From contig NZ_CP094357.1 of assembly GCF_014779555.2 (NCBI RefSeq), positions 682,001 to 746,000 of the forward strand: a DNA stretch of 64,000 nucleotides, written 5' to 3'. The DNA comes from Lysobacter capsici (lineage in GTDB: Bacteria; Pseudomonadota; Gammaproteobacteria; Xanthomonadales; Xanthomonadaceae). Of the stretch, positions 2,804 through 22,979 are shown one piece after another. Numbering within the stretch: position 1 is the stretch's first letter; every line of letters begins with the position of its first letter. The notes under the pieces were generated by a model. The model had not been told where the DNA came from, did not search any database, and saw only the letters and a list, made by a program, of their open reading frames with translations. The translations under genes were made by a program, and so were the position numbers.

Positions 2804-2992
2804 ATGAGCGATGTTTCCGAAGGCGCGGCCCTGGTCGCCCAGTGGCGCACCGATGCTGAAAGCAACAACCCGGCGGGTCCTCTGTTCATCGGGGGCGAGT
2901 ACGTAGAGTCGGACATCATCGGTGAAGTGGCTCCGGCCATCACCGGGTGTTCGCTTTGTACCGGTTCGATGCGCATTAACTGCTGCGCCTGA
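2804..2992 (+). CDS. Class II lanthipeptide precursor LanA1
   Basis: 62 residues. The ATG at 2804 has a strong ribosome site AAGGAG at 2792-2797, six bases upstream; the GTG directly before it is less likely to be used. The leader contains NPAGPLFIGGEYV (residues 22-34), resembling the (N/H)P(A/V)G block of mersacidin/lichenicidin-type leaders. The C-terminal core, from about residue 46, is ITGCSLCTGSMRINCCA, with Cys at 49, 52, 60 and 61 and Ser/Thr at 47, 50, 53 and 55: four of each, enough for up to four thioether rings. There is no canonical GG or GA cleavage site; the leader/core border may lie around EVAPA. The lanM gene follows 262 bp downstream. Ring pattern and activity are unknown. 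Confidence 0.82.
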   Translation: MSDVSEGAALVAQWRTDAESNNPAGPLFIGGEYVESDIIGEVAPAITGCSLCTGSMRINCCA

Positions 2993-3014
2993 TCCACGCG
3001 ACACCCGATGGGTT

Positions 3015-3060
3015 CCAGGCCGTCCGCCGACTCTCGCAAGCGGCGCCGGCGGCCTGGTTT
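3015..3060 (+). terminator. Hairpin with short T tract between lanA1 and lanM1 (possible partial terminator)
   Basis: CCAGGCCG at 3015-3022 pairs with CGGCCTGG at 3050-3057 and is followed at once by TTT. The inner part is GC-rich and can pair further. Its position just after the precursor gene suits a leaky terminator that keeps precursor mRNA above synthetase mRNA. A similarly placed hairpin occurs in cassette 2. Strength is uncertain because the T run is short. Confidence 0.45.
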
Positions 3061-3254
3061 ATCGGACGCGCTTGCGCGCCGGTTCGCATCCTCGGGTTTC
3101 AACACCGACTCTACTTCTTACCGATTCGCTACGGCCGCAAGGGCGATGCCATGGATGCAATGCAGCATGCGCGCGGCGGGCGTCGCCGCCGCGATGACGT
3201 GAGCCCGGTTCCGCCGTCGCGTTTCCCGCCACTCGTCTTGTCGGCCGATCGCGC

Positions 3255-6137
3255 GTGACCGTCGCCGCGATCGAGGAAAATTTTCAAGCCTCGCTGCATT
3301 GCCTGGTCGAACCGGCGCTCGATGCGCTGCGTGCCGAGCTTGCCGCGGTTGACGGTCTGGGCGCGGGCGAATCCGAGGCCGTGCTCGCCGCGACCCGCGA
3401 ATCGCTGCTCGCCTTCCTGCACGGCAAGCTCGCCCGCGTGCTGGTGCTCGAACTCAACGCCGCGCGCGTCACCGGCCGCCTCGATGGCATCGATGCCGCG
3501 CAGCGCTGGGTGCAGTTCCGCGAGCTGTCCTCGCAGCAATCGTTCTGGGACGAACTCGCGCCGCACTATCCTTCGCTGCCGTTGCGCATCGAGCGGATCG
3601 TCGCGAACCGCTGCGCGGCGTCGCTGGATTTCGCCCGTCATTGGATCGCCGACAAATCCCTGTTGACGTCGTTGTGCGGCGCCGCGCCGGGTGAGCTGCG
3701 GCAACTGAGTTTCGGCGCCGGCGACAGCCATCGCGGCGGGCTGTCGGTGGCGCTGCTGCGTTGCGACGGCGGCCGGCTGGTGTACAAGCCGCGCTCGGTC
3801 GCGATCGACGATGCCCTGCACGCGTTCGTCGCCGAGCTCGGCGCCGACGCCGGTATCGAATCGAGCATCCGCGTGCCGCGCGTCGTCGACGGCGGCGAGC
3901 ACGGCTGGGCCGAATTCGTCGCCCACCGTTACGCCGCCGACGAGGTCGAACTCGCCGCGTTCTACCGCGGCATCGGCCATTGGCTGGCGATCATGCGCGC
4001 GCTCGGCGGCAGCGATCTGCATGCCGAAAACCTGATCGCCGCCGGGCCGAGCCCGGTGGTGGTGGATTGCGAGACCTTGTTCACGCCGCGCATCGCGCCG
4101 CATCCGTCGGGTTTCGGCGAGGCCTACGATCAGGCCGCGGGCCTGCTCGGCCGCAGCGTGCTGACCATCGGCCTGCTGCCTGGGCGCGGTCAGGGGCTGG
4201 GCTGGCGCGGGGTCGACAACTCCGGCATCGGCATGCTGCCGGGGCAGCAGCCGATGATGCCGCTGCCGCATATTCTCGAAGCCGGCACCGACCAGGCGCA
4301 TATCGGCATGGCGATGTTCGAGGCCGGCGTGGCCCAGAACCATCCCTGCGCGCAACCGGCGCTGGCGCGGTTCTGGCCCGACGTGCTCGATGCCTTCGAC
4401 GGCGTGACCGCGCATCTGCAACGGCTCGACGACAGCGGCGCGTTGCGGCAACGGCTGCAGCGCTTCGCCGATTGCGAAGTGCGCGTGGTCACGCGCGCGA
4501 CCGAGGTCTACGCCGAGATCGGCCGCATGCTGTGGCATCCGGTCTCGCTGCACGACGATGCCGCCGCGCGTCGGCGCGCCCACGACGTGCTGGCGAAGAT
4601 GGCGCGCAACAGCTCGATCGCGCCGGCCGATCCGGCGGTGATCGAGGCCGAGATCGACGATCTGCTCGACGGCGACGTGCCGTTCTTCAGCACGCTCGCG
4701 CGCGACGGTCGTCTGGTCGGTCCACACGACACGTTCTGGCTTGCGCCTTGCGATCTGGTCGAGCACACGCTGCAGCAATGGCGCAGCTCCGATCTGCCGC
4801 TGGAACGCGGCATCATCCAGGCCGCGCTGGTCAGCGCTTACCTCAACGATGGCTGGGTGCCGAGCGAGCGGTCGCTGCGGCCGCAACAGGTCCGCGACGG
4901 CGATATCGATTCGCGCAGGCGCACGCAGGCGGCGGCGATCATGCGCCGCTTGCTGGACGCGGCGATTCGCGGCCGCGACGGCAGCGTCGCCTGGATCGCG
5001 CCGAGCGTCACTCCGACCGGGTCGTCGATCCAACCGATCGAACAGGATCTGTACGGCGGTATCTGCGGTATCGCCCTGCTGGCGGCGGCGTATGCGCGCG
5101 AGACCCAGGCCGGTCGCGCCGATCCGGTCGACGGCGTCGACGATCTGTTGGCCGCGACGTTGCATACGCTCGATCTGGCCGAAGAAAAACGCCGCGTCGC
5201 CGAAAGCCGCGCGCTCAAGCTGCGGCCGCGATCGATCGGCGCTTACATCGGCCTGGGCTCGCAGATCTGGACCCATCTCGTGCTGGCGCATTGGCGCCGC
5301 GACGGCGGTCAGGGCGTGCAACGCGCGCGCGCGCTGGCCGATCGCATTCCAGCCGCCGCGGCCGCCGAGCGCAGCAACGATCTGATCGATGGCGTGGCCG
5401 GCGCGATCGCGCCCTTGCTCGCGCTGGCGACCGCGAGCGGCGAGTCGAGTTACCTGACGATGGCCTGCGAACTAGGCGATCTGCTGGCCGAACGCGCGCA
5501 GCATCGCGACGGCACCGCGTGCTGGGCCGAGACGCGCTGGCCCGACGGCATGGGCGGTTTCGCTCATGGCGCCACCGGCATCGGCTGGGCCTTGAGTCGG
5601 CTCGCGCGCGCCTGCGGCCGGTCGAGTTATCAGACGCTGGCGCAAGCGGCGTTCGCGTTCGAGGATGGGTTGTTCGATCACGACGAAGGCAACTGGCTGG
5701 ATCTGCGCGACTTCGAAGATGCGCGGTCGACCGCGGCCTGGTGCCACGGCTCGGTCGGCATCGGTCTGGCGCATGTCGATCTCGATCCGCGGTTGGCCGA
5801 TCCGGCCACGCGTGTGTTGCTGCGGCGCGCGGCGGCGGCGACCTGGCGCATGGGGTTCGGCGCGAACCACGGCCTGTGCCATGGCGATCTGGGCGCGTGG
5901 GAATTGCTCGACCGCGCGATCGCGCTCGGCGAAGCGCCGCAGGGGCTCGATCGCGAGCAGGTGTTGGCGTCGATCCTGACCAGCCTGGAGGATCACGGCC
6001 CGACCTGCGGCGTATTGCGCGATACGTTCGTGCCCGGCCTGATGTCGGGCCTGGGCGGCATCGCCTATCAATTGCTCAGGGCGCATCCCGACAGCGCTCT
6101 GCCGTCGGTGTTGACGCTGACCGATCCGGGCCGGTGA
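3255..6137 (+). CDS. lanM: Class II lanthipeptide synthetase LanM1
   Basis: 960 residues from a GTG at 3255; no strong ribosome site precedes it, so the exact start is uncertain. The N-terminal dehydratase half (DUF4135-type) carries kinase-like motifs: YKPRS at 177-181, SDLHAEN at 253-259, and VVVDCETLF just after. It would phosphorylate and eliminate Ser/Thr of the precursor using ATP. The C-terminal LanC-like cyclase half has the zinc ligands in WCHG (C830) and LCHGD (C875, H876), needed to activate Cys for thioether formation. Length is typical of LanM. The precursor lanA1 lies directly upstream on the same strand. No LanT, LanP or immunity genes follow; the next gene is convergent. Identification is firm; substrate pairing with LanA1 is inferred from proximity. 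Confidence 0.95.
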   Translation: MTVAAIEENFQASLHCLVEPALDALRAELAAVDGLGAGESEAVLAATRESLLAFLHGKLARVLVLELNAARVTGRLDGIDAAQRWVQFRELSSQQSFWDELAPHYPSLPLRIERIVANRCAASLDFARHWIADKSLLTSLCGAAPGELRQLSFGAGDSHRGGLSVALLRCDGGRLVYKPRSVAIDDALHAFVAELGADAGIESSIRVPRVVDGGEHGWAEFVAHRYAADEVELAAFYRGIGHWLAIMRALGGSDLHAENLIAAGPSPVVVDCETLFTPRIAPHPSGFGEAYDQAAGLLGRSVLTIGLLPGRGQGLGWRGVDNSGIGMLPGQQPMMPLPHILEAGTDQAHIGMAMFEAGVAQNHPCAQPALARFWPDVLDAFDGVTAHLQRLDDSGALRQRLQRFADCEVRVVTRATEVYAEIGRMLWHPVSLHDDAAARRRAHDVLAKMARNSSIAPADPAVIEAEIDDLLDGDVPFFSTLARDGRLVGPHDTFWLAPCDLVEHTLQQWRSSDLPLERGIIQAALVSAYLNDGWVPSERSLRPQQVRDGDIDSRRRTQAAAIMRRLLDAAIRGRDGSVAWIAPSVTPTGSSIQPIEQDLYGGICGIALLAAAYARETQAGRADPVDGVDDLLAATLHTLDLAEEKRRVAESRALKLRPRSIGAYIGLGSQIWTHLVLAHWRRDGGQGVQRARALADRIPAAAAAERSNDLIDGVAGAIAPLLALATASGESSYLTMACELGDLLAERAQHRDGTACWAETRWPDGMGGFAHGATGIGWALSRLARACGRSSYQTLAQAAFAFEDGLFDHDEGNWLDLRDFEDARSTAAWCHGSVGIGLAHVDLDPRLADPATRVLLRRAAAATWRMGFGANHGLCHGDLGAWELLDRAIALGEAPQGLDREQVLASILTSLEDHGPTCGVLRDTFVPGLMSGLGGIAYQLLRAHPDSALPSVLTLTDPGR

Positions 6138-6148
6138 GCGCGTCGATG

Positions 6149-6178
6149 TCCGATGCGGCGCGCGGCGACCGCATCGGA
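6149..6178. terminator. Hairpin between convergent lanM1 and esterase gene
   Basis: TCCGATGCGG (6149-6158) and CCGCATCGGA (6169-6178) form a perfect 10-bp stem with a 10-base loop. It sits in the 67-bp gap between the ends of two convergent genes. On the plus strand only TT follows, so it is terminator-like rather than a textbook terminator. It may serve both directions. Confidence 0.5.
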
Positions 6179-6204
6179 TTCGATCGAAGCCGCGGCGCGG
6201 CGAC

Positions 6205-7149
6205 TCAGGGCTTGGGATGGGCGAGAAAGAAATCCCAGGTCAGGTTGCTGGCGTCGGGGCCGGAGGTATCGCCGTACAGACTGCAGGCGCAGCCGCCGGG
6301 ATAGGCATGGCCCGCGCCGTCGATCATGTACTGCTCGATCAGCGATTGACCCGCGGCGTCGCGATACGTCGTGCGCGTATACGAACGACCGCCGGGAACC
6401 TGTCCGTATTCGACCTGGTCGGCGACCGCATCGATGCCGTCGATGGTGGCCCATTGCGCGGCGATGCGATCGGCGGTGGCCGGCGGAACCACGAGATCGG
6501 CGGTGCCCTGGAAGATGATCGCGGGCACCGCGCGACGGCGGCTGCCCATTTCCGTGATCGCCTTGTTGCCGGCGGTCGCCCCCGATTGCTGTTGCAGGAT
6601 GTCGCAGTCGTACTCGCAGCCGGCCAGGATGCTGGTGGCCGCGTACACATCGGGATAGGCGATGGCCATGATGTTGGCCATGACGCCGCCCGCGGACACG
6701 CCGGTCACATAGATCCGTTTCGCATCCACGCTGTACTGCGAACGCACCTTGTTGGTGATGCCGGCGATCAGCGCCGGCTCGCCCATGCCGCGGTGACGGT
6801 TGCTGCTCAGGAACCAGTTCCAGCAGCCGGCCGGGTTGGCGAAATTGTTCTGGTCGGGAAACACGACGATGAAGCCGCGCTCCTCGGCGACGCGCGCCCA
6901 GCCCGACAACAGTTCGAAGCCGACATCGTTCTCGGTGCAGCCGTGCAGCGCGACCAGCAGCGGCATCGCCACGCCGGGGCGGTAACTCGTCGGCACGTAG
7001 CCGTGGTAGTCGCGCGCGCCGAACACGCTGATGTAGGCGCCGTTGAAATAACCGGCGGCGTAGGACGGACCGGGGATCGCGACGGCCAGCATCAGCGCGG
7101 CCAGCGCGAGGATGAGGCGTCGGCGTAACGATTTGCGCAACTCGTACAT
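6205..7149 (-). CDS. Secreted PHB-depolymerase-family esterase (LpqC-like)
   Basis: 314 residues from an ATG at 7149. A signal peptide is clear: positive residues (RKSLRRR), then a hydrophobic run ending PGPSYAAG near residue 33, so the enzyme is exported. It has an alpha/beta-hydrolase fold of the esterase/PHB-depolymerase family: oxyanion motif LHGC near residue 90, nucleophile in GVSAGG (S152), a likely Asp in GTADLVVP, and His in GAGHAYPGG. No separate substrate-binding or linker domain is present, so the substrate could be a short-chain ester, a feruloyl-type ester or a polyester; the sequence does not decide. Convergent with lanM1 and divergent from the MaoC gene. Confidence 0.85.
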   Translation of the reverse strand: MYELRKSLRRRLILALAALMLAVAIPGPSYAAGYFNGAYISVFGARDYHGYVPTSYRPGVAMPLLVALHGCTENDVGFELLSGWARVAEERGFIVVFPDQNNFANPAGCWNWFLSSNRHRGMGEPALIAGITNKVRSQYSVDAKRIYVTGVSAGGVMANIMAIAYPDVYAATSILAGCEYDCDILQQQSGATAGNKAITEMGSRRRAVPAIIFQGTADLVVPPATADRIAAQWATIDGIDAVADQVEYGQVPGGRSYTRTTYRDAAGQSLIEQYMIDGAGHAYPGGCACSLYGDTSGPDASNLTWDFFLAHPKP

Positions 7150-7532
7150 GCCACTGTCTCCTGGTGGGTACGGCGGGGTGGAGCGTGCGGACGTTCCGGG
7201 CCTATGGTCGACACAGCCGCCGATGGTCGCGATGACGGTTGTCCGCGAGGCGCTGGGCCTGCGAACGGTCGAGCGCCCGAATAGCGGTGTTGTAGCCGCT
7301 TGCGGGCCACGGGGTTTTACCGTCGGCGAACTCGTTGTTGACGTACGCCGAACCCGAATTGCGAGCGGCATCGCGCGATACTCGCAACCGTCTTGTAGTC
7401 GCGCGGCAGGTCCGCAATGATGCGGCGACGCCGGCGCGGCTTCGCGGCCGCGGCACGGATCGCTCGAAACCAGCCGTTGCGGCCGTTCGCCGCGCAACCC
7501 ATCGCAACCCCATCGCAACCCGTGGAGAGGGC
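7150..7532. promoter_or_regulatory. Divergent promoter region between esterase and MaoC genes
   Basis: 383 bp with no credible gene. A short tandem repetition of ATCGCAACCC (7501-7510 and 7512-7521, with a partial copy CGCAACCC at 7493-7500) lies just before the MaoC ribosome site (GGAGAGG, about 7523-7529). I could not identify promoter boxes. Confidence 0.35.
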
Positions 7533-7994
7533 ATGACCGCTCGCTATAGCCTGGATACCGTCGCCGATTTCGTGTCGCAGGAAATCGGCGTGACCGACTG
7601 GCAGGCGGTCGAGCAGGCGACGATCGATCAGTTCGCCTCGGCCACCGGCGACCGGCAATGGATCCATGTCGATGTCGAGCGCTGCCGTCAGGAAAGCCCG
7701 TTCGGCGGCCCGATCGCGCACGGTTTCTTGTTGCTGTCCCTGCTCGCGCCGATGCAGATGCGGCTCGGGCTGATGCCGTCGGGCGTGTCGCGGGCGATCA
7801 ACGCCGGCCTGGGCGAGGTGAAGTTCCAGTCGCCGGTGCTCGCCGGCGAATCGGTGCGGTTGCGGGTGACGCTCGAATCGATCGAACCCAAGGGCGCCGA
7901 CCGCTTGCTGATGGTCACCCGCAACGTGCTGGAAGTGCAGGGCAAGGACAAGCCGGCGCTGACCGCGAGCATGGCGGCGATGCTGTATCGCTAG
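7533..7994 (+). CDS. MaoC-like (R)-specific enoyl-CoA hydratase
   Basis: 153 residues from an ATG at 7533 behind a good ribosome site (GGAGAGGGC). It is a single hot-dog domain of the MaoC/NodN type. The catalytic signature is present: FASATGDRQWIHVD with D40 and H45, followed by SPFGGPIAHGFL. Family members hydrate trans-2-enoyl-CoA to (R)-3-hydroxyacyl-CoA, or act on related acyl thioesters, in the cytosol. Its neighbours (esterase, acyl-CoA ligase, receptor) fit an acyl-chain catabolic role. The AraC-family gene is convergent, 27 bp away. The exact chain-length preference cannot be read from sequence. Confidence 0.85.
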   Translation: MTARYSLDTVADFVSQEIGVTDWQAVEQATIDQFASATGDRQWIHVDVERCRQESPFGGPIAHGFLLLSLLAPMQMRLGLMPSGVSRAINAGLGEVKFQSPVLAGESVRLRVTLESIEPKGADRLLMVTRNVLEVQGKDKPALTASMAAMLYR

Positions 7995-8021
7995 CGGCCC
8001 GCCGTTAGTCGTGCATCGCGC

Positions 8022-8984
8022 TCAATGGCGGCGCAATTGCGTCGGCGACACGCCGTAGATCTGGCGGAACACCCGGCAGAAATTCGACTGCGAGCGAAAG
8101 CCGTTGCGGTAGGCGATCTCCGAGATCGGCAGATTCGCCAGCGCGGCGCTGGTCAACATCTCGCGCGCCTTGCTCAGGCGCAGCGCGCGCAGGCGCTCCA
8201 TCACCGACTGGCCGCTGTCGCGGAACAGCCGATGCAGATAGCCCTCGGAGATGCCGCAGCGCCGGGCGATTATTTCGGCCGACAGGTCTTCGTCGGCGTA
8301 ATGCGATTCGATGCAGTCCAGCGCCTTCTGCTTGTGCGCGGCGGCCAGCGTGCGGTCGTCGCAGAAGGTGCGGGTATCGCCGCGCAGCATCAGCGCGACC
8401 AGATCGCACAGCTGGGTGGTCAGCACCTGCGCTTCGCTGTCGCCGATCTGGCCGGCGAGGCGATCGATCTGGCGCGCGTACACGCCCAGCAGTTCGGCGC
8501 GCGGGTCGCTGCCGTCCAGCGGCGCGGAAAACACCGTCGGCAGGTTGGACACGCGCTGGCGCAGCAGATGCACCGGGATCAGGGTGTTGAAGCTTTCGTA
8601 GTGGCCTTCGGGTTGCACGTCGCCGACCACCGCCGCGGAGATCAGATAGATGCGCCGCGGCTCCAGCAGCACGTCGTGGCCGCCGACGACATTGCGCGAG
8701 CGGCCGGCCGCCGGCAGCGCGAGCACGTAGTTCTGCGCCAGCCCGGACAGATGCACCGAGGTGCGGCGCATGTGCAGGCCGCTGAGCGCGATGTGATTGA
8801 GCTGCAGCGCGCCGACCGATTGGCTCGCCAGCCAGCCCATGCGGCCCTCGGGCCGGGTCAGCTGGATGTCGGCGCTGCCGAATCCGGGCGAGGACACGGT
8901 CGACCAGCCGCCCATCGCGACCGCGGGACTCGACGCATTCCTCGCGGAAAACACCGTGCGCGTGGAAGGAACGGTTGCGGACAT
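8022..8984 (-). CDS. AraC-family transcriptional regulator
   Basis: 320 residues from an ATG at 8984. The C-terminal ~100 residues form the double helix-turn-helix AraC domain: first helix pair at LSAEIIARRCGISEGYLHRL, second at ISEIAYRNGFRSQSNFCRVF, ending in YGVSPTQLRRH. The N-terminal ~200 residues look like the AraC_binding_2 (AraC-like ligand binding) domain found with many catabolic activators. It is divergent from the TonB receptor gene with a 276-bp gap, the usual layout for a regulator that activates the adjacent uptake operon. The ligand is unknown; an acyl or aromatic compound handled by the neighbouring genes is inferred. Confidence 0.88.
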   Translation of the reverse strand: MSATVPSTRTVFSARNASSPAVAMGGWSTVSSPGFGSADIQLTRPEGRMGWLASQSVGALQLNHIALSGLHMRRTSVHLSGLAQNYVLALPAAGRSRNVVGGHDVLLEPRRIYLISAAVVGDVQPEGHYESFNTLIPVHLLRQRVSNLPTVFSAPLDGSDPRAELLGVYARQIDRLAGQIGDSEAQVLTTQLCDLVALMLRGDTRTFCDDRTLAAAHKQKALDCIESHYADEDLSAEIIARRCGISEGYLHRLFRDSGQSVMERLRALRLSKAREMLTSAALANLPISEIAYRNGFRSQSNFCRVFRQIYGVSPTQLRRH

Positions 8985-9260
8985 CGGCCACCTCGGGCGG
9001 ATCGGATCAGCGGCATCTTAGGAGCGATCCGGCCCGCGCCGCATGCTGCGACGCAGCACATCGAGTGCAGTCATCGTCAATGCGCGGTGCTGCAAACGTA
9101 GAACCGACCCGGCGCATCGCCGCTATGTTGCTTGCGACACACCGACGCCCATGGGGCGCGGTCCGAGTCGGACGCGTCCGGCGCCCGGGCCGCACGCGGC
9201 GCGGCATGCATCCGATGACGGCCGCGCCTTGCGCGGCCATGGGCGAGGGGATCGAACGAA

Positions 9261-11489
9261 ATGAGACAAGGGATTTTGAGCGCGGCGATCGGTCTGGCGA
9301 TGCTGATGCATCTGCAGCAGGCGCAGGCGCAGGACGCGGCCGAGCCTGAGCAGGCGCAAAGCGCCGAAGCCTCGGCAAGGAAACCGACCCAGCTGGAATC
9401 GGTCACCGTGACCGCGCGCAAACGCGAGGAGACCTTGCAGGACGTGCCGATCGCGGTCAGCGCGTTCACCGCGTCGGCCCTGTTCGAACAGAACGTGCAG
9501 AACCTCGGCGACCTGCAGGGCAAGGTGCCGTCGTTGCAGGTGTATGCCGCGCGCGGCTCCAACACCACCTTGACCGCGTACATCCGCGGCATCGGTCAGG
9601 CCGATCCGACCTGGGGCTTCGATCCCGCGGTCGGCGTGTATCTCGACGATGTCTACCTGGCCCGGCCGCAGGGCGCGTTGCTCGACGTGTTCGATGTCAG
9701 CCGGATCGAAGTGCTGCGCGGCCCGCAGGGCAGCCTGTACGGCAAGAACACCATCGGCGGCGCGATCAAGTACGTGTCCAACCCCTTGCCGAAAACCACC
9801 CAGGGTTCGGTCGAAGCCAGCATCGGCACGCACGGCGAGCAGGGCATCAAGGCGAGCCTCGGCGGCGCCAGCGACGACGGCGTGTGGCGCGCGCGGGTCG
9901 CGGCGGCGAGCATGCACAACGACGGCTACGGCGAAAACCTGACCTACGACAGCCGCAACGGCAACAAGAACACCAATGCCGCGCGCGCGACCCTGGGTTT
10001 TTTCCCGTCCGACGAGTTCAGCATCGAGCTGGCGCTCGACGGCATGCACGACAATTCCAATCCGCGCGGCGCCAAGATGCTTAAGGCCAACCGCTTCTAT
10101 CCGTCGTACCGGCCGCTGGACAGCGATTACGACACCCGCAGCGGCATGCCGCAGGTCAATCACAGCGAACTCGAAGGCGCCGCGCTGACCTTCAAATGGA
10201 TCGCCAATGCCGACTGGAGTTTCAAGTCGATCACCGCGTATCGCAGTTCGGAAACCCGCTCGAACATCGATTTCGACACCTTGCCGCAGAAGATCGGCGA
10301 CGCCGGCGGCAGCTACAGCGATCACCAGTTCAGCCAGGAGCTGCAGGCGAATTTCGATTCCGGCGGCAGCGTGCACGGCGTGCTGGGCCTGTTCTATTTC
10401 AACGGCGCGGCCGGCGGCATCAACCGCAGCACGTTCCTGGGATCGCCGCCGTACACCTTGCTGGGCCTGTCGCAGTTCGCGGTCAGCAGCGGCAAGGTCG
10501 ACACCCGCAGCGTGGCGGCCTACGCCGATTTCAGCTGGGACATCGACCCGGACTGGAGCCTGGACGTCGGCCTGCGCTTCACCGACGAAACCAAGCGCGC
10601 GCTGATCCTCAACTACGCCTACGCCGATCCGGCGTTCCAGCGGCCGATCGCGGAGCTGGCCAACTTCACCGGTTCCAATTCCTCGCGCAATGTGTCGCCG
10701 AAGGTGTCGCTGTCGTGGCGCGCGAACGACCGGATCAACCTGTATGCCAGCTACAACACCGGCTTTCATTCCGGCGGCTACAACATCCGCGCCAACTGCG
10801 CGGTGATCCCGAGTTCGTGCCGGCCGATCGACGACGAGAAGGTCCAGTCCTATGAACTGGGCAGCAAGATGAGCTTCTTCGACGATCGCCTGATGATCAA
10901 CACCTCGGTGTTCCACAACGACTATTCCAACATCCAGCTGTCGGTGTTCACCTCCTACACCTTGCCCGGCGGCAGCACCGGCTTCTTCGGCGACTACACC
11001 AATGCCGGCAAGGGCTACATCCAGGGGCTGGAGCAGGAGTTCGCCTGGAAGCCGTCGGAACATTGGACGCTCAGCGGCAACCTTGCGTATCTGCGCACCA
11101 AGTACAGCGAATACCTGAGCGGCGGCGTCGATATCGCCGACAGCCAGCGCTTCACCAACGCGCCGCGCTGGTCGGGCGGACTCAGCCTGGAAGGGCAGTA
11201 TCCGCTGGCCCGCGGCGGCAGCCTGGGCGGTCGGATCAATTACAGCTACCAGACCCGGATCTATCCGGAGACCACGTTGTCGCCGCTGATCGCGCAGCGC
11301 GCCTACGGGCTGTGGAACGCCGGGGTGATCTGGCGGATCAACGAGCCGTGGACGCTGAGCCTGCAAGGCAGCAACCTGGCCGACAAGTCGTATCGCACCA
11401 CCGGTTACAACGTCGCCGCGCTGGACATCGTGACCGGTTTCTATGGCGCGCCGCGCACGGTGACCTTGTCGGCGCGTTATGAATTCTGA
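9261..11489 (+). CDS. TonB-dependent outer-membrane receptor
   Basis: 742 residues from an ATG at 9261 with an AGGGGA ribosome site. The signal peptide ends near AQAQD (residues 20-25). The TonB-box/plug entry VTVTARKREETLQDVPIAVS follows, then the plug domain (DVYLARPQG, VLRGPQGSLYGKNTIGGAI) and a beta-barrel ending in the usual aromatic residue (SARYEF). There is no N-terminal STN signalling domain. The plug type (RKREETLQDVPIAVSAF) is common in receptors of sphingomonads and xanthomonads for non-siderophore substrates. It is followed at once by an alpha/beta hydrolase and an acyl-CoA ligase, so it probably imports the substrate they process. Divergent AraC regulator upstream. Confidence 0.92.
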   Translation: MRQGILSAAIGLAMLMHLQQAQAQDAAEPEQAQSAEASARKPTQLESVTVTARKREETLQDVPIAVSAFTASALFEQNVQNLGDLQGKVPSLQVYAARGSNTTLTAYIRGIGQADPTWGFDPAVGVYLDDVYLARPQGALLDVFDVSRIEVLRGPQGSLYGKNTIGGAIKYVSNPLPKTTQGSVEASIGTHGEQGIKASLGGASDDGVWRARVAAASMHNDGYGENLTYDSRNGNKNTNAARATLGFFPSDEFSIELALDGMHDNSNPRGAKMLKANRFYPSYRPLDSDYDTRSGMPQVNHSELEGAALTFKWIANADWSFKSITAYRSSETRSNIDFDTLPQKIGDAGGSYSDHQFSQELQANFDSGGSVHGVLGLFYFNGAAGGINRSTFLGSPPYTLLGLSQFAVSSGKVDTRSVAAYADFSWDIDPDWSLDVGLRFTDETKRALILNYAYADPAFQRPIAELANFTGSNSSRNVSPKVSLSWRANDRINLYASYNTGFHSGGYNIRANCAVIPSSCRPIDDEKVQSYELGSKMSFFDDRLMINTSVFHNDYSNIQLSVFTSYTLPGGSTGFFGDYTNAGKGYIQGLEQEFAWKPSEHWTLSGNLAYLRTKYSEYLSGGVDIADSQRFTNAPRWSGGLSLEGQYPLARGGSLGGRINYSYQTRIYPETTLSPLIAQRAYGLWNAGVIWRINEPWTLSLQGSNLADKSYRTTGYNVAALDIVTGFYGAPRTVTLSARYEF

Positions 11490-11538
11490 GCGCTCGCCAG
11501 TCGCGAACCCATCGCTTGCAGAGGATTTGACCGCCACC

Positions 11539-12426: not shown

Positions 12427-12526
12427 ATCGATCGCCCGGGTTCGCCGCGACCCGGCGCAACGCATCGGGGCTCAGACCCGCCCATAAAACCTCGTGGCTG
12501 GCTCGCAGCCCGGAGACTCCCGCGCC

Positions 12527-14110
12527 ATGCTCAACATCCCCGCGCCGTTGCTGCCCGAGATCTTCGCGACCCATGGCCGATGGCTCGGCGCCAAGCCGGC
12601 GATCGTCGCGCCGGACCGCAGCCTGGACTGGCGCAGCCTCGACGCGCAGACCAACCGCATCGCCAACGCGTTGATCGCGAGCGGCGCGCGCCATGGCGAT
12701 CGCATCGCGATGCTGATGTCGAACTGCATCGAGATGGCCGAGCTCATCGTCGGCATCATGAAGGCCGGCTGCGTCGCGGTCCCGCTCAATACCTCGGTCA
12801 GCGATGCCAGCGCGGCGGCGATGATCGCCGACGCGGGCGCGACGATGGTGTTCGCGACCGCCGATCATGCCGCGCGTGTGCAACCCACGGCGGGCGTTAT
12901 GCGGATCGAGGTCGGCGCGGTCGCGAGCGCTCGCGATGACAGTGCGAGCGCGGCCGGATGGAAGGCGTATCCGGATTGGCTCGGCACCGCCGGCGTCGAG
13001 CCGCCGAAGCTGCCGATCGCCGGCTCGGACCTGTGCAATATCATCTATTCCTCCGGCACCACCGGCGAGCCGAAGGGCATCGTGCACAGCCACCAGGCCC
13101 GGCTGCTGTGGGCTTACGACGTCGGCCTGGCCCTGCGCCAGCATTCGGGCACGCGCAGCCTGATCGTGACCGGGCTGTATTCGAACATCAGCTGGGCGGC
13201 CTTGCTGGGAACCTGGCTCAGCGGCGGTACCGTCGTGCTGCGTCACGGCTTCGATGTGGCCGACACCCTGGCGACGATCGCGCGCGAGCGGATCACGCAT
13301 ACCGCGATGGTGCCGGTGCAGTATCAGCGGCTGCTCGATCATCCCGCGTTCGCCGCGACCGATCGTTCCTCGCTGCAGATGGTGATGAGCGTGGGCTCAT
13401 CGTTGCCGTTGGCGACGAAAGCGCGCTTGATCGAGACCTGCCGCTGCGATGTGGTCGAGGTGTACGGCACCACCGAAGGCATCCTCACCGCCTTGGCGCC
13501 GGAAGACGCGCAAGGCCGGCTGGCCTCGGTCGGCAAGCCGCTGCCCGGGGTGGAGCTGTCGATTCTCGATGCGGACGATCGCCCGGTCGCGGCGGGACAG
13601 GCGGGCGAGATCGTCGGCCGCAGCCGGTTCGCGATGGACGCGTACTGGCGCCGGCCCGCGGCGACGGCCGAGGCGATGTGGGTCGATGCCGATGGGCGGC
13701 CGTGGCTGCGCACCGGCGACATCGGTCGTCTCGACGACGAGGGCTATCTGTACATTCTCGACCGCAAGAAGGACCTGATCATCTCCGGCGGGCAGAACCT
13801 TTATCCGGCCGATATCGAGGCGGTGCTGATGCAGCACGAGGACGTCGGCGAATGCGCGGTGATCGGCATCCCCAGCCCGACCTGGGGCGAATCGCCGCTG
13901 GCGCTGGTGGTGCTCAAGGACAGCGACCTCAAGCCCCGCGGCGCCGGCGATGCCGAGCAAATCAAGGATTGGCTAAATCAGCGCGTGGGCAAGCAGCAGC
14001 GCGTGGTCGCGGTCGAGTTGCGCGAGCGCTTGCCGCGCAATCCCACCGGCAAGCTGCTCAAGCGCGAACTGCGCGCGCCGTATTGGTTGGATGTTCGGTC
14101 GGGGGGCTGA
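12527..14110 (+). CDS. Acyl-CoA synthetase (AMP-dependent, class I adenylate-forming)
   Basis: 527 residues from an ATG at 12527 (GGAG upstream); an in-frame GTG at 12494 is possible. The motifs of the ANL superfamily are all visible: P-loop YSSGTTGEPKG (about residues 175-186), YGTTEG, TGDIGRLDDEGYL, hinge and lysine region DRKKDLIISGGQNLYP, and the C-terminal catalytic lysine in NPTGKLLKRELR. The reaction would be acid + ATP + CoA giving acyl-CoA. There is no carrier-protein domain, so it is not an NRPS module. It closes the receptor-hydrolase-ligase operon. Chain length or aromatic preference is not evident. Confidence 0.9.
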   Translation: MLNIPAPLLPEIFATHGRWLGAKPAIVAPDRSLDWRSLDAQTNRIANALIASGARHGDRIAMLMSNCIEMAELIVGIMKAGCVAVPLNTSVSDASAAAMIADAGATMVFATADHAARVQPTAGVMRIEVGAVASARDDSASAAGWKAYPDWLGTAGVEPPKLPIAGSDLCNIIYSSGTTGEPKGIVHSHQARLLWAYDVGLALRQHSGTRSLIVTGLYSNISWAALLGTWLSGGTVVLRHGFDVADTLATIARERITHTAMVPVQYQRLLDHPAFAATDRSSLQMVMSVGSSLPLATKARLIETCRCDVVEVYGTTEGILTALAPEDAQGRLASVGKPLPGVELSILDADDRPVAAGQAGEIVGRSRFAMDAYWRRPAATAEAMWVDADGRPWLRTGDIGRLDDEGYLYILDRKKDLIISGGQNLYPADIEAVLMQHEDVGECAVIGIPSPTWGESPLALVVLKDSDLKPRGAGDAEQIKDWLNQRVGKQQRVVAVELRERLPRNPTGKLLKRELRAPYWLDVRSGG

Positions 14111-14422: not shown

Positions 14423-14635
14423 TCATTCGTCCTCGCCTTCCTCTTCCTCTTCTTCGTCCTCGTCTTCTTCGTCCTCATCTTCGTACTGCTGGCCCAGTGA
14501 GTAGCGAATCCACGGCTCGCCTTCGGTGTGCTTGCCGGTGGCGATGGCGATGAGCACCCAGCCTTCGTCCAGCAACCGATTGACGTCCTGCACGCTGTCG
14601 GTCTCCTGGACCGTTCCGATCGTTTCCAAATCCAC
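14423..14635 (-). CDS. Small protein with extremely acidic C-terminal tail
   Basis: 70 residues from a GTG at 14635, chosen because AAGGAA lies nine bases upstream. An in-frame TTG at 14665 has no ribosome site. The N-terminal half is an ordinary globular-looking stretch (ETDSVQDVNRLLDEGWVLIAIATG), similar in feel to small conserved proteins of unknown function. The last ~20 residues are almost only Asp and Glu, encoded by a run of GAx codons that appears as a TC-rich simple repeat at about 14424-14480. No membrane segment. It lies downstream of the M13 peptidase gene on the same strand, with a 119-bp gap. Function unknown; such tails often bind basic proteins or metals, but nothing here shows it. 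Confidence 0.75.
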   Translation of the reverse strand: MDLETIGTVQETDSVQDVNRLLDEGWVLIAIATGKHTEGEPWIRYSLGQQYEDEDEEDEDEEEEEEGEDE

Positions 14636-14754
14636 GGTGAGTGTTTCCTTGAGGGCGGCCGACAAGGATAAATCAGCGGCGTGTCATCGGTAAGAACGAG
14701 ATGTCGTCGGCGCCGACCCGGCGGGCGGCAGCAGGCGGATGCGGATCGCGGCGC

Positions 14755-16830
14755 TTACCAGACCGCGGCGCGCTGCTCGGGCGCGAGGAACAGTTTCGCC
14801 CCGGCGTCCACGTCGAACGCGTCGTACCAGGCCTGCAGATTGCGCACCACGCCGTTGACCCGATACCGCGAAGGCGAGTGATAGGCGCGCTCGATGTCGG
14901 CCCGCAGCGAGGCATCGGTGTCGAGCGAGCGCCACAGCTGCGCCCAGCCCAGGAAGAAGCGTTGTTCGCCGCTGAATCCGTCGCGCATCGCCCGGGTGTC
15001 GATGCCCCGCGCCGCCGCATACAGGCGATACGCGTCCAGGGCCACGGTGACGCCGACCAGATCGGCGAGGTTTTCGCCGAGGCTGCGGCGGCCGTCCAGA
15101 TGCACGCCGGGCAGCGGCGCATACGCGGAGTATTGCGTCGCCAGCACCTGCGTCCTGGCGTCGAACGCGGCGCGCGCGGGCGGCGACCACCAATCGCGCA
15201 GATTGCCTTGATCGTCGAAGCGCGAGCCCTGATCGTCGAAACCGTGCGCCATCTCGTGACCGAGCACCGCGCCGATCGCGCCGAAGTTCACCGCGCTGTC
15301 GGCGCTGGCGCTGAAGGCCGGCGCTTGCAGCAGCCCGGCCGGAAACGTCACCGCGTTGAGTTGTGGGCTGAAACTGCCGTCGACCGACTGCGGCGGCAGA
15401 TGCCAGCGATACGGTCGCTCGGGATCGCTGAGGTAGAGCGCATCGAGCTCGATCTGCGCGGCCTTGAGGCGATGGATATTGCCGATCGGATCGTCCGGCA
15501 GGATTTCGACCTCGGCGTAGTCGCGCAGATCGTCGGGATAGCCCAGGCGCAGACCCATCCGGTCGATCTTCGCCAGCGCGGTCGCGCGCGTCGCCGGGTC
15601 CAGCCAGTCGGCCTTGGCGATGCGCGCGCGGAACGCCTGCTTCATGAAAGGCGCCATCGCCTCGACCGCGTCGCGGTCGGCCGACTTGAAGAACTGCGCG
15701 ACGTAGCGGGCGCCGACCAGTTCCGGCAGGTTCTGGCTGACGAACTGGATGCCGCGTTCGGCGCGCGAACGGCGGGTCGTCTGCCCAGCCAGGGCGGTGC
15801 CGTAGAACTGGAAGCTCGCGTCCTGGAACGCGGTCGGCAGCAGGTGCGCGTGGTTGTGGACCCAATGGAAGGCCAGGTACGAACGCCAGGTATCCACGGC
15901 AGTCGCGGCGAAGATGGCCGCGCTGTCGCGGATGGCGGTGTCGGTGTTGAGCACCACGGTCTCGACCGAGGGATAACCGCTGGCGGCGACGAACGCCCGC
16001 CAGTGGAAACCGGGCGCGTAGTCCGACAGCTCGGCGAACGGCATCGGGTGGTAGTTCAATTTTCGATCGCGCAACTGCTGCGCGTTCCACTGGACCTTGG
16101 CCAGCTTCGCCTCCAGCGCCAGGATCGCGGCGGCGCGGGCCGGGCCGTCGGCGATGCCGACGCGGGCGAAGGTCTGCGCGATGTAGTCGAGGTAAGCCGC
16201 GCGCTGGCCGGCGTATCGGTCGCTGGCGGTGTCGTAGTGGTCCGGATTCGGCAGGCCGACGATGCGGCCGCTCGCGGTCTGCTGGTCCAGGTGCAGCAGG
16301 CTGCGGCGGGTGTCGCCGGCATCCAGGAACACGTAGCAGCCCACGATGGTGTGCGAGAGCGGGTGGGCCATGCGCTGCGCGACCTGGGCGTGGTCGGCGA
16401 TGGCGAGGATCGCATCCAGGTCGGCGCGGATCGGCGCGAGGCCGGCGCGGTCGATCGCCGCGACGTCCGCGTAGCTGGTGTACAGGTCGGCGAGCTTGTC
16501 GCCACGCGCCGGTTGCGCGGCGGCGGCTTCGATGATGGTCTTGATGCGCGCTTGCGTACGCAGGAACATCGCGTTCAATTCGCCGTATTGCGCATAGCCC
16601 GCGGGTCGCGCGGCGGTGTCGATCCAGCCTTGATTGACGTACTGGAAGAAGTCGTCGCCGGGCGTCAGTGTGTCGCTGATACGGGCCAGGTCGACGCCCC
16701 AGTAGGCGACCGGCGGCGATGCGGCAGCGGCGAACCCGGTGCGAGTTGCCGCGGCCAAGGGCAGCAGCGCCAGCCCCAGGCAGATCCGCCTGCGTTCGAG
16801 GGACAGACCCTGCGGTTCGCGCTCGCTCAT
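14755..16830 (-). CDS. M13-family zinc metallopeptidase (neprilysin/PepO type)
   Basis: 691 residues from the ATG at 16830. An upstream in-frame start at 16863 would lie inside the operator palindrome. The N-terminus has a signal peptide with arginines (LERRRICLGLALLPLAAATR), so the protein is exported; the RRR motif leaves Tat export open. The M13 zinc site is complete: HEMAH at 525-529 and ENLAD at 586-590, with the usual preceding LNAVTFPAG and following GFDDQGSRFD. Family members cleave short peptides in the periplasm or outside. The gene is 79 bp behind lanM2 on the same strand, which makes it a candidate lanthipeptide leader peptidase. However, a separate operator precedes it. M13 enzymes are also common as general peptidases in this group. 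Confidence 0.92.
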   Translation of the reverse strand: MSEREPQGLSLERRRICLGLALLPLAAATRTGFAAAASPPVAYWGVDLARISDTLTPGDDFFQYVNQGWIDTAARPAGYAQYGELNAMFLRTQARIKTIIEAAAAQPARGDKLADLYTSYADVAAIDRAGLAPIRADLDAILAIADHAQVAQRMAHPLSHTIVGCYVFLDAGDTRRSLLHLDQQTASGRIVGLPNPDHYDTASDRYAGQRAAYLDYIAQTFARVGIADGPARAAAILALEAKLAKVQWNAQQLRDRKLNYHPMPFAELSDYAPGFHWRAFVAASGYPSVETVVLNTDTAIRDSAAIFAATAVDTWRSYLAFHWVHNHAHLLPTAFQDASFQFYGTALAGQTTRRSRAERGIQFVSQNLPELVGARYVAQFFKSADRDAVEAMAPFMKQAFRARIAKADWLDPATRATALAKIDRMGLRLGYPDDLRDYAEVEILPDDPIGNIHRLKAAQIELDALYLSDPERPYRWHLPPQSVDGSFSPQLNAVTFPAGLLQAPAFSASADSAVNFGAIGAVLGHEMAHGFDDQGSRFDDQGNLRDWWSPPARAAFDARTQVLATQYSAYAPLPGVHLDGRRSLGENLADLVGVTVALDAYRLYAAARGIDTRAMRDGFSGEQRFFLGWAQLWRSLDTDASLRADIERAYHSPSRYRVNGVVRNLQAWYDAFDVDAGAKLFLAPEQRAAVW

Positions 16831-16841
16831 GCACGTCTCTC

Positions 16842-16865
16842 GTGTGACTACAAGTGTAGTCACAC
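16842..16865. promoter_or_regulatory. Perfect 24-bp palindrome, BlaI/MecI/CopY-like operator
   Basis: Arms GTGTGACTACA (16842-16852) and TGTAGTCACAC (16855-16865) are perfect inverted repeats around AG. The centre, ACTACA-N2-TGTAGT, matches the known operator core of the BlaI/MecI/CopY winged-helix repressors (TACA-N2-TGTA). It lies 11 bp upstream of the M13 peptidase start, where a bound repressor would block transcription. No blaI-like gene is in the window. Also readable as a hairpin, but the 2-base loop argues for a DNA site. Confidence 0.7.
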
Positions 16866-16909
16866 TAGCACGAGGCGAGGCCGCGACGACGGGCCGGACT
16901 TGCCGCGCC

Positions 16910-19750
16910 TCAGGCCATCGACACCCGCCGTTCCAGCAGCAACGGCGAGGCCAATCCCGATTGCGGATGCATGCGGTTGAGGCCGTGGATCGCGCCCGAC
17001 AGCCCGGTCATCAGGCCCGGGGTGAACGCGGCGCGGGTCAGGCCGCCGACCATGCCGCGATGTTCCTCGATCGAGGAGACGATCTGCGCGGTGGCTTCGT
17101 CGGGATCGGTCGCGCACTGTTCCGGATCCAGCGCGGCCGCGGCGACCAGCAATTCGCGCAGCGACATATCGCCGTGGCACAGGGTGTGGCTGGTGCCCCA
17201 TTGGTCGCGCACGGTGGCGACCGCGCGGCGCATGGTGCGCAGGTGGCGCGGGCTGCGCGTGCGCGCGTACAGATCGCAGGCGCTCAGGCCGATGCCGACG
17301 CTGCCGTGGCACCAGGTCGGGAAGTTGAAGCTGCCGTCGAGCTCGCGCGAATCGAGCCAGTTGCGCAGGGTTTCGTCGTAGCACGATTCCTGAAAGGCGA
17401 AGGCGGCATCGGACAAGGCGCTCCAGCGCGCGCGTTGCTGCGCGTCGCCGGCGCCGGCCAGGACCAGCCGCGCCAGCGCCCAGGCGATGCCGGTGGCGCC
17501 GTGGGAAAATCCGTTCGACGGGTGCGGCGATCCGCTGGTCGGCCAACGCGCGCCGCGCTCGTCGACGATCGCGCCGGCTTCCAGCCGTTGCGCCGCGCGC
17601 GTGGCCAGCGCGGTCCAGCGCGCGTCGCCGGTCGCTTCGGCCAGTCCGAGCAGCGGCACGATCGCGCCGGCCGCGCCGTCGATGATGTCGAAGTGCTCGT
17701 CGTCGTCGAAGCCGCGCTGTTCCAGCGCCCGCGCGCTGGCGACCGCATGCGGCAGCAGCTCGGGGCGCTTGAGCAGATCGTGCAGGGTCAGCCAGGTCCA
17801 TACCTGCGAGGCGTAACCGGTGAAGCCGCCGACCTTGTCCGGCACGTCGATCGCTTCCATCGCGATCTGGCTTTGCAGCGCGCCCTCCAGCGCCTGCTCG
17901 ACCCCGTCCACCGGATCGGCGCGGCCGTGCTCGACTTCATGCAGATAGCCGGCGAGCACGACGGCGACGCCGCCGAGCCCGAAATACAGATCGGCGCGCA
18001 CCGGCTGCACCAGCCAGCCGCCTTGGGTGATCTCGGGCGTGATCCAGGTCGCCGAGCCGTCCTCGCCGCGCACCGACAGCCGCAGCAGCCGCGCGATCGC
18101 CTCGGCCGCGACCTTGCGCCGGCGTGTTTCGAGTCGATCGCGATGCGGATGGCGGGCGACGTAACGATGGCCGCTGCGCTCTTCTTCGCGATCGCGCATG
18201 CGTTGATTGAGATCGGTGGCGACCAGCGCGCTGCGGATCGTCAGTTCCTCCAGATCGGTGCGCATGCCGCGCCAGTCCAGCAGCACGCTGTCGATGCGCT
18301 CGGCGCTCAAGGGCTCGACGAAGATCGGGACGTCGCCGTAGCGCAGCGCGTCGATCTCGGCCATGACGTCGGCGTCGCTGGAGCGCTCGTTGGGCAGCAT
18401 GATCGCGTTGCGTTCGAACAAGTCGCGCGCGCGTTCGATCGCCTCGGCTTCCTTGTGCAGCGAAGCCGGGTGCCACAGCATGCGGCCGACTTCCACGTAG
18501 GCGCGGGTGGTGCGGCGGATGTCGCGCACCTTGCAGCCCTGGAAGCGCGCGAGCAGCGGCGCGAGTTCGCCGGCCTGGTCGAGCCGGCGCAGGCGGGCGG
18601 TGATGTCGAGGAAGCCTTCGCTGATCTCGTCCCAGTAACGCGACACGTCCGGGCGCGGGCTGGGGTGGTTCTGGGCGACGTCGACCTCGATCTCGATGAC
18701 TTTCAGCCGCGCCTGGGTCGTGCCGTCGTCGACGATGGTCGGCGCGCGCACGCGCGGCTGCTGGTCCGGCAACGCGCCGGCGGCGGACATGTCGACGCCT
18801 TCGAAGCCGAGCGCGCGGGTGCGGAACGGCACGATGCCGGTGCGCAACACCGAATTGCGGATCAGCGACTGGGCGAAGTCGAAGGCCTGGCCATACGGCG
18901 TGGGCACCGGCTCGGGCACGATCTCGAACAGGCTTTCCACATCGATCACCACCGGCACCGGGCCGACCGCGATCAGATTTTCCAGGTGGATGTCGGTGCC
19001 GCCGAGCAGGCGCAATACCGCCAGCCAGTGGCCCAGGCCGCGATAGAAGCTGCGCAGTTCCTCGTCGCTGTCGCAGTGGCGATGCCTGGCGAACGCGGCC
19101 CAGCCGTAGCGGTCGCGATCGATCACCGCGGGCACGCGCACGCGATCGGCGAGGTCGCCGAAAACGCGCGCGAGGAATGCGTCGAGCACCGCGTCCACCC
19201 GCAGCGAACGCGGCTTGTACATGATCGTGCCGCCTTGCATCGTCAGCTTGGCCACGGTCTGGCCGCCGTCGTGCAGATCGCCCTGGCCGAGCGAAACGCC
19301 GGTGAGCCGTCCGCAGGGCGCGCCCAGCAGCGGCGTCAGCAGGTCGCGATCGGCGACGAAGCGTTCGACCATGGTTTCGATCGCGCGGCGCTGCAAGTCG
19401 AGCGTGCGTTGCAGTCGCTCGCGCAGCGGCGGGTAACGGCGGTCGAGGTGTTCGGCGAACGCCGGCGTCAGGCATTGCGCGACGAACTGGGCGAAGCGGC
19501 CGGCGTCGTCGTCGGCGGTCAGTTCGCCGGCGCGCCGCGCCGCATGCAGTTCCAGCAGCAGCACGCGGTTGAGCTTGAGCTTGGCGTTGGTGTACAGCGC
19601 TTCGTCGCCCGCGGCCTGGATCGAGGCGATTTCCGCGTCGTCGAGCTGGCCCGAGAACGTCGCGAGTTTGGCGGTGAAGGCGGCGCGCGTGGGCGCGGCG
19701 AAATGATCGATGATGCGGGCGAACGCATCCGTTGAAGCCGTTTCGCTCAT
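16910..19750 (-). CDS. lanM: Class II lanthipeptide synthetase LanM2
   Basis: 946 residues from an ATG at 19750; AAGGA lies 12 bases upstream. Same architecture as LanM1: dehydratase half with MYKPRS (Y178), GTDIHLENLI and VVIDVESLF; cyclase half with zinc ligands in WCHG (C814) and LCHGD (C858, H859). It would dehydrate and cyclise LanA2, encoded 110 bp upstream. The two LanMs align along their whole length but are clearly diverged paralogues, not a recent duplication. Downstream, 79 bp away, is the M13 peptidase gene. No fused peptidase-transporter and no LanT are visible. Confidence 0.95.
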   Translation of the reverse strand: MSETASTDAFARIIDHFAAPTRAAFTAKLATFSGQLDDAEIASIQAAGDEALYTNAKLKLNRVLLLELHAARRAGELTADDDAGRFAQFVAQCLTPAFAEHLDRRYPPLRERLQRTLDLQRRAIETMVERFVADRDLLTPLLGAPCGRLTGVSLGQGDLHDGGQTVAKLTMQGGTIMYKPRSLRVDAVLDAFLARVFGDLADRVRVPAVIDRDRYGWAAFARHRHCDSDEELRSFYRGLGHWLAVLRLLGGTDIHLENLIAVGPVPVVIDVESLFEIVPEPVPTPYGQAFDFAQSLIRNSVLRTGIVPFRTRALGFEGVDMSAAGALPDQQPRVRAPTIVDDGTTQARLKVIEIEVDVAQNHPSPRPDVSRYWDEISEGFLDITARLRRLDQAGELAPLLARFQGCKVRDIRRTTRAYVEVGRMLWHPASLHKEAEAIERARDLFERNAIMLPNERSSDADVMAEIDALRYGDVPIFVEPLSAERIDSVLLDWRGMRTDLEELTIRSALVATDLNQRMRDREEERSGHRYVARHPHRDRLETRRRKVAAEAIARLLRLSVRGEDGSATWITPEITQGGWLVQPVRADLYFGLGGVAVVLAGYLHEVEHGRADPVDGVEQALEGALQSQIAMEAIDVPDKVGGFTGYASQVWTWLTLHDLLKRPELLPHAVASARALEQRGFDDDEHFDIIDGAAGAIVPLLGLAEATGDARWTALATRAAQRLEAGAIVDERGARWPTSGSPHPSNGFSHGATGIAWALARLVLAGAGDAQQRARWSALSDAAFAFQESCYDETLRNWLDSRELDGSFNFPTWCHGSVGIGLSACDLYARTRSPRHLRTMRRAVATVRDQWGTSHTLCHGDMSLRELLVAAAALDPEQCATDPDEATAQIVSSIEEHRGMVGGLTRAAFTPGLMTGLSGAIHGLNRMHPQSGLASPLLLERRVSMA

Positions 19751-19811
19751 CGCAGCTGCGAATCCTTGCGGTGGGACGGAACCGGTCGCGTTGCGCGACC
19801 CGTTATCGATG

Positions 19812-19847
19812 AAAGCACGCGGCCGGACGCGAGGCCCGGCCGCGCGC
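19812..19847 (-). terminator. Hairpin with short T tract between lanA2 and lanM2
   Basis: On the minus strand, CGCGGCCGG and CCGGCCGCG form a 9-bp perfect stem. It extends to 12 pairs with one G-U, and TTT follows directly (plus-strand AAA at 19812-19814). Placed between precursor and synthetase genes, it probably lowers lanM2 expression relative to lanA2, as in cassette 1. Confidence 0.55.
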
Positions 19848-19860
19848 CATCACGCATTAC

Positions 19861-20070
19861 TCAGCAGCAAAGGCAGCCGCCGCCGTAGCTGCAGGTGGTC
19901 CCGCCGAACGTGCCGCACACGCCGAGCGTGGCGCGCATGTCGGTGTTGCCGAGCGCTGCTTCGGCCACGGCCTGACCTTCGATGTAGAGCGAACCGGCCG
20001 GATTGTCCTGGCCGTCGATGCTGTCGGAACCGTTGAGCCAGCCGGACACGACGTCGTCATTGTTCTGCAT
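19861..20070 (-). CDS. Class II lanthipeptide precursor LanA2
   Basis: 69 residues from the ATG at 20070, preceded eight bases upstream by AAGGAG (plus-strand CTCCTT at 20079-20084). The frame is open further upstream but lacks another good start. The leader holds NPAGSLYIEGQAV (residues 23-35), matching the LanA1 leader at NPAG-L-[FY]-I-x-G-x-x-V. The core, from about residue 47, is ATLGVCGTFGGTTCSYGGG followed by CLCC: Cys at 52, 60, 66, 68 and 69, and Ser/Thr at 48, 54, 58, 59 and 61, five of each. The Gly-rich core with a C-terminal Cys cluster suggests several small, overlapping rings. No GG cleavage motif at the border. lanM2 follows. Confidence 0.85.
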   Translation of the reverse strand: MQNNDDVVSGWLNGSDSIDGQDNPAGSLYIEGQAVAEAALGNTDMRATLGVCGTFGGTTCSYGGGCLCC

Positions 20071-22968: not shown

Positions 22969-22979
22969 CGCGCTACGAC

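Follow-up and report, generated by a model that had tools for sequence, protein, structure and literature searches.

The class II lanthipeptide genes of the window, that is, the whole 64,000-nucleotide stretch analysed here (bases 682,001-746,000 of a 6.24 Mb single-contig Lysobacter genome), very likely represent two independent minimal DUF6229 cassettes, each composed of one precursor gene and one full synthetase gene. The main features are given below; in what follows, G-numbers label the compared genomes, G000 being the window's own, and L-numbers the compared loci.

2804..2992, plus strand: LanA1, DUF6229 precursor of 62 aa, predicted core with four Cys (PF19740, 73.7 bits; type B leader cluster)
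3255..6137, plus strand: LanM1, class II lanthipeptide synthetase of clade B, 960 aa (TIGR03897, 577 bits; PF13575 and PF05147; tree)
6205..14110: catabolic block with esterase, MaoC-like protein, AraC regulator, TonB receptor, alpha/beta hydrolase and AMP ligase, outside both cassettes
14755..16863, minus strand: M13 (PepO/neprilysin-like) zinc metallopeptidase (PF05649, 296 bits; PF01431, 189 bits)
16910..19750, minus strand: LanM2, class II lanthipeptide synthetase of clade A, 946 aa (TIGR03897, 516 bits; PF13575 and PF05147; tree)
19861..20070, minus strand: LanA2, DUF6229 precursor of 69 aa, predicted core with five Cys (PF19740, 71.7 bits; type A leader cluster)

In the proposed scheme, each LanM would recognise the leader of its own precursor, dehydrate Ser and Thr in the short C-terminal core and then close thioether rings onto Cys. 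As the synthetases fall into two old clades, each matched to one leader type, the cassettes should be able to operate in parallel without crossing. Export of the modified precursors from the cytosol would depend on an unlinked transporter, most likely of a type that lacks a peptidase domain. An unlinked protease would remove the leader of cassette 1, and the M13 zinc peptidase encoded downstream might, tentatively, remove that of cassette 2. The products are probably small antibacterial peptides, by analogy with rhodanocin. The latter was obtained by refactoring a DUF6229 precursor and a LanM of Dyella sp. 333MFSha in E. coli, which gave four dehydrations and three rings, and it was active against Klebsiella at 126 uM, as described in the accessible part of the report (PMC9576775).

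Gene content and integrity of the two cassettes

The earlier note had described two class II cassettes, each with one precursor and one full LanM, and its coordinates and strands proved exact. Both precursors, each adjoining a LanM gene, matched PF19740 well above its cut-off of 25 bits, and both synthetases exceeded the TIGR03897 cut-off of 304 bits. The LanM gene lies 262 nt downstream of its LanA gene in cassette 1 and 110 nt in cassette 2, and the two LanM genes are convergent with a gap of ~10.8 kb. The ATG of LanA1 is located six bases downstream of an AAGGAG sequence, LanM1 starts with GTG, and scans for promoters and terminators gave no signal exceeding that of shuffled sequence. Upstream of LanA2, two tandem paralogous proteins (20967-21926 and 21973-23010, minus strand) were without a Pfam match.

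The kinase-like and zinc motifs, noted before as intact, were present in both LanMs at all 11 residues checked, namely eight of the kinase-like dehydratase site and three zinc ligands (Cys-Cys-His), a choice that we take to follow CylM and cyclase work. Among 78 LanMs, eight of these 11 columns were invariant and the remaining three were the same in 76-77, with gaps otherwise. The closest solved structure by sequence was LicM2 (6st5), and CylM (5dzt) for the dehydratase half. Two further genomes, G090 and G571, have close relatives of LanM1 (92-93% identity) and LanM2 (90%), while LanM1 relatives past this group reached ~62% in G551 and 58-59% in five Lysobacter genomes. Between the three genomes the dN/dS of the LanMs was 0.16-0.22, and the enzymes are under purifying selection. 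LanA1 was unchanged in G090 and differed by one change in G571; the dN/dS of the LanAs ranged from 0 to 0.42 over 61-68 codons, which is too short to carry weight.

Transcription of such genes has been reported in L. capsici VKM B-2533T, where, according to the accessible part of the source, LanM genes IEQ11_02800 and IEQ11_02845 were up 1.7/3.5-fold and 5.2/2.0-fold, respectively, in two media (PMC10380237). LanM1 and LanM2 are nine gene steps apart, and nine tags lead from IEQ11_02800 to IEQ11_02845 if tags advance by five; from this equal spacing, the two genes are very probably the LanM genes of the window, whose source would on this basis probably be L. capsici or a very near relative. 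The absence of transporter and immunity genes nearby might suggest that both cassettes are functionless relics. Such a state is extremely improbable in view of the intact motifs, the low dN/dS of the LanMs and published expression data for genes that very probably correspond to them (PMC10380237). Two reports state, in their accessible parts, that no lanthipeptide had yet been isolated from the genus Lysobacter (PMC10380237, PMC10745450).

Two diverged synthetases with their own substrates in one locus had been considered unusual outside dedicated multi-lanthipeptide producers. The divergence was supported, with 40% identity between LanM1 and LanM2 and their placement in different clades of a likelihood tree, but the genome itself turned out to be such a producer. 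G000 encodes five LanC-like proteins, four LanMs and one class III LanKC, and those outside the window are:

5.40 Mb: third LanM, with a DUF6229 precursor
4.14 Mb (8527-11253 of L077): fourth LanM, without DUF6229
2.44 Mb: class III LanKC

Just upstream of the fourth LanM, a 52-aa Cys/Ser-rich ORF without a family match (8101-8259 of L077) may be a precursor of another type. LanM-like matches were found in 17 of 20 Lysobacter genomes, with two or more in 12 of them (some class III-like, at ~30% identity), and 10 of the 18 Lysobacter genomes searched contained at least two DUF6229 genes. On a wider scale, DUF6229 occurred in 23 of 297 sampled genomes of the family and 43 of 397 of the order, two samples that overlap. 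A published survey, in its accessible part, counted 72 class II clusters in Lysobacter; among their 27 unique precursors, 21 belonged to DUF6229, in six families (PMC11451712). The locus is one instance of this published family, which is common in Lysobacter, rather than an exceptional double locus. Gene pairs of this kind were already known, and what is new here comprises the matching of leaders with LanM clades, the exporter comparison and the M13 gene.

Two other genes were recorded in passing. In five Lysobacter loci (L041-L045), a gene that clustered with a GT4 glycosyltransferase (the L041 copy was scanned) follows LanM after 49-67 nt. The window also encodes a 2881-aa protein (35999-44644, plus strand) with glycoamylase and GH94 domains, which we take to resemble cyclic beta-glucan synthases.

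Leader types and synthetase clades

To compare leaders with synthetases, 20-kb stretches around DUF6229 matches were taken and their genes were called by script. As a result, 80 LanMs were found, from which L077 (without a DUF6229 partner) and L080 (a copy of LanM1) were left out. Average-linkage clustering into two groups divided the remaining 78 LanMs into 51 and 27 and the leaders alone into 51 and 27, and the two splits agreed in all 78 pairs. Six pairs were added to this set (L065, L121, L208, L209, L210 and L211), three of them from G571 and G572; the LanMs of L065 (G118) and L121 (G551) were located by tblastn in open frames. In the extended set the split was 54/30, and the LanM and leader groupings agreed in 84 of 84 pairs. 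The Mantel r was 0.868 and none of 999 permutations was as high, for 84 pairs that include many close kin and do not amount to 84 independent trials. A leader motif, [EQK][AS][DE][IL], was present in 30/30 members of the smaller group and 0/54 of the larger, K having been added for one row; without K, the figures for the 78-pair set were 27/27 and 0/51. The likelihood tree of the LanMs gave the same two-way split as the clustering.

LanM1 belongs to the smaller group and LanM2 to the larger one. The LanA1 leader is of type B, WRTDAESNNPAGPLFIGGEYVESDI, and the LanA2 leader of type A, VVSGWLNGSDSIDGQDNPAGSLYIEGQAVAEAAL; the leader of L126 also clustered with type B. The window thus holds one pair of each clade and leader type and therefore does not stem from a recent duplication of one cassette, an origin likewise ruled out by the 40% LanM identity and the different clades. 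The pair accordingly represents two lineages that parted long ago and differ in leader type. Most simply, each LanM would act solely on its own precursor, and with two clades matched to two leader types, cross-modification between the cassettes would be unlikely. The matching rule, which had no exception in 84 pairs, could aid in predicting and building peptides in Lysobacter and its kin.

In lacticin 3147, haloduracin and lichenicidin, which are two-component lantibiotics, each peptide has its own LanM. The cassettes might similarly encode the alpha and beta halves of one such lantibiotic, as there are two precursors and two dedicated LanMs within 11 kb, close copies of both cassettes are kept 11-13 kb apart in G000, G090 and G571, and both LanM genes, if they are the same as very probably they are, are expressed in L. 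capsici (PMC10380237). However, precursor types A and B were not tied together: among 56 DUF6229 genomes, both types were found in 15, A only in 29 and B only in 12, and the nearest A and B cassettes in G273 and G293 were ~99 and ~97 kb apart. The two cassettes also have no shared transporter and enclose an unrelated catabolic block, which recurs in G283 and G138 at 77-84% DNA identity, where the stretches fetched around it gave no LanM match. A single two-component product is accordingly regarded as very unlikely. Since the block occurs elsewhere without a LanM match, the closeness of the two independent cassettes is probably due to chance, kept by descent; the AraC gene between them belongs to this block, which exists elsewhere without the cassettes.

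Export and leader removal

It had been stated in the earlier note that the window lacks a LanT and that export must be supplied from elsewhere. Both statements held: the window contains no C39 domain, just two occur in the whole genome (at 42,980 and 5,278,829), and without a linked LanT export must come from another place. A LanT together with further lan genes immediately outside the window would have made the locus part of one conventional cluster. Such a LanT was ruled out as far as C39 is concerned, the nearest domain lying >600 kb from the cassettes, and >1.7 Mb separates them from any other LanC-like or DUF6229 gene above cut-off. For DUF6229, it is usual for a LanA-LanM pair to have no LanT linked to it. 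Although C39 was present in 54 of 56 DUF6229 genomes, its shortest distance from any of the 88 DUF6229 matches on a shared contig was 27,972 bases (in G514), a figure for which broken assemblies could hide some cases.

An ABC exporter without a C39 match was found within 1 kb in 18 of the 84 pairs, and neither cassette of the window has one. Thirteen of the 18 were rhodanocin-like loci; their exporter was closest to YojI and cyclic-peptide exporters but below both cut-offs in the one copy scanned, to which the other 12 were 60-79% identical. The exporters of L066 and L126 were MsbA-like, under the cut-off, and those of L130 and L131 had only the ABC domain by Pfam. In L065 (G118), a frame for a peptidase-less ABC exporter directly follows LanM (about 12851-14875, plus strand). 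ABC-like matches farther off (L046 and L047 at 1.3 kb, L127 at 2.8 kb) were left uncounted as exporters; by Pfam, a transport domain is lacking in L046, which has two ABC domains, and L127 is a lone ATPase.

The window's own genome encodes one YojI/PvdE-like protein (508 bits) at 2.99 Mb, located by eye between NRPS-like and PKS-like frames. A TGA within the match is the gene's own stop, past which the profile match extends. As a candidate for an unlinked orthologue of the rhodanocin-linked exporter, this protein was set aside, since it probably serves the NRPS-like/PKS-like cluster. Within the window, an ABC ATPase of another kind (59922-60944, plus strand) with a weak DrrA-like tail lies 40 kb from LanM2, and nothing ties it to the cassettes; presumably it is of the broad kind that includes lantibiotic immunity ATPases.

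In prochlorosin producers, one LanT serves many precursors in trans. The C39 transporter at 5.28 Mb, a 718-aa C39 ABC protein, might in the same manner export and trim both precursors, and a GG does occur in LanA1, inside the conserved leader block (FIGGEY). The best model for this transporter, however, was NHLM_micro_ABC1, whose score of 467 bits fell short of the cut-off (853). In both LanA1 and LanA2, the stretch from the leader block to the core is free of GG, GA and GS; in the region tested, G[GAS] was found in 29 of 78 precursors. Moreover, in the two DUF6229 genomes of 56 without a C39 match, G020 and G118, an ABC exporter is encoded behind the LanM of a DUF6229 LanA-LanM pair (L066 and L065, respectively). 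The C39 protease LahT150 also failed to cut rhodanocin, as stated in the accessible part of the report (PMC9576775). Export and trimming of both precursors by this transporter is therefore considered improbable, and an unlinked exporter lacking a peptidase domain is preferred.

Attention is drawn to the M13 gene, which lies downstream of LanM2 on the same strand with a gap of 46 nt, or 79 nt if the ATG at 16830 is the start. In addition to its two Pfam matches, the encoded protein carries, by eye, the motifs HEMAH and ENLAD, corresponding to HExxH and a downstream ExxxD, which place it in the M13 family, and its N-terminal stretch resembles an export signal. Orthologues at 91% were found in G090 and G571, which makes 3 of 20 Lysobacter genomes with the window's own included, and the next best match by score was at 40%. 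A close orthologue is present in 3/3 Lysobacter genomes with cassette 2 and in 0/17 without it; the three are close kin, so their co-occurrence may be a single event. The gene is under purifying selection (dN/dS 0.17-0.21 among the three genomes). In a tree, the three proteins formed a clade of their own on a long branch, beside a copy present in 15 of 20 genomes (bootstrap 96, SH-aLRT 89), although a long-branch warning applies to this tree, so that the sister group of the lan M13 is not firmly placed. Compared with the window, G571 has ~2.5 kb extra between the ligase and the M13 gene (L208, about 15895-18412).

These features are consistent with the M13 protein being a candidate leader peptidase of cassette 2, which is possible although doubtful. 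Cassette 2 could then be a LanA-LanM-M13 operon, in which a lineage-specific, fast-diverged paralogue of the neprilysin/PepO type would serve as a dedicated post-export periplasmic leader peptidase, a proposal that we make with the same caution. Alternatively, and somewhat more probably than not, the M13 protein is a mere neighbour, a general periplasmic oligopeptidase without a role in maturation, and housekeeping or secreted proteases remove the leaders. An M13 gene was located within 1.2 kb of LanM in just 4 of 47 LanM groups (grouped at 80% identity), and three of these four form one related group with a convergent M13 of another clade, which is also found without a LanM neighbour, as in G283; G000 itself carries four further M13 genes. 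In addition, no M13 gene lay beside the nearest other LanM2 relatives (L046, L047, L050 and L052, from G293, G273, G070 and G144). Against a mere neighbour speak the same-strand position 46 nt behind LanM2 and the separate long-branch clade, seen only together with cassette 2. As a general DUF6229 peptidase, M13 was rejected, for most loci have none and the second kind of adjacent M13 belongs to the clade that also stands alone. In three rhodanocin-like loci (L119, L122 and L123), a gene for an S9 prolyl oligopeptidase, another possible leader peptidase, is divergently oriented to LanA.

The leader of rhodanocin was removed with a commercial enzyme, and the accessible part of that report does not name a native protease for DUF6229 lanthipeptides (PMC9576775). 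Our literature search, partly judged by title, gave no report of an M13 peptidase in such lanthipeptide clusters. If the candidate role is true, export and cleavage would be separate in DUF6229 lanthipeptides, and the M13 gene, new here, would supply the kind of processing step missing for rhodanocins. It is a testable candidate for this final step, and together with the leader-synthetase rule it is worth a bench test.

Comparison with known systems

The window cassettes very probably belong to the Lysobacter DUF6229 clusters surveyed before, with which they share the genus and the precursor family; in its accessible part, that survey gives no leader-LanM clade split, M13 gene or exporter comparison (PMC11451712). 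Rhodanocin (LanII) of Dyella resembles cassette 2 in its PF19740 precursor, its single LanM and, as judged via relatives, its leader type and clade A. The 13 rhodanocin-like loci (L110-L120, L122 and L123) have cores of the CSxCTASRPxxCC pattern and a linked YojI/PvdE-like ABC exporter, whereas the cores of the window differ and no such exporter lies within 1 kb, so that neither cassette is a rhodanocin proper by core pattern and linked exporter. The core of Dyella sp. 333MFSha rhodanocin is presumably of the same pattern, which fits its family. No M13 gene was seen alongside the rhodanocin-like loci, whereas cassette 2 has one.

Lacticin 3147, haloduracin and lichenicidin resemble the window in having two LanAs and two LanMs in one region. 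Two-component lantibiotics share one transporter in one cluster, whereas the window has convergent pairs, an unrelated block between them and no linked transporter. The prochlorosin system (ProcM, ProcT) is of class II, as is the window, and its precursors lie far from the transporter. One LanM serves many precursors in that system, whereas in the window each LanM has one precursor.
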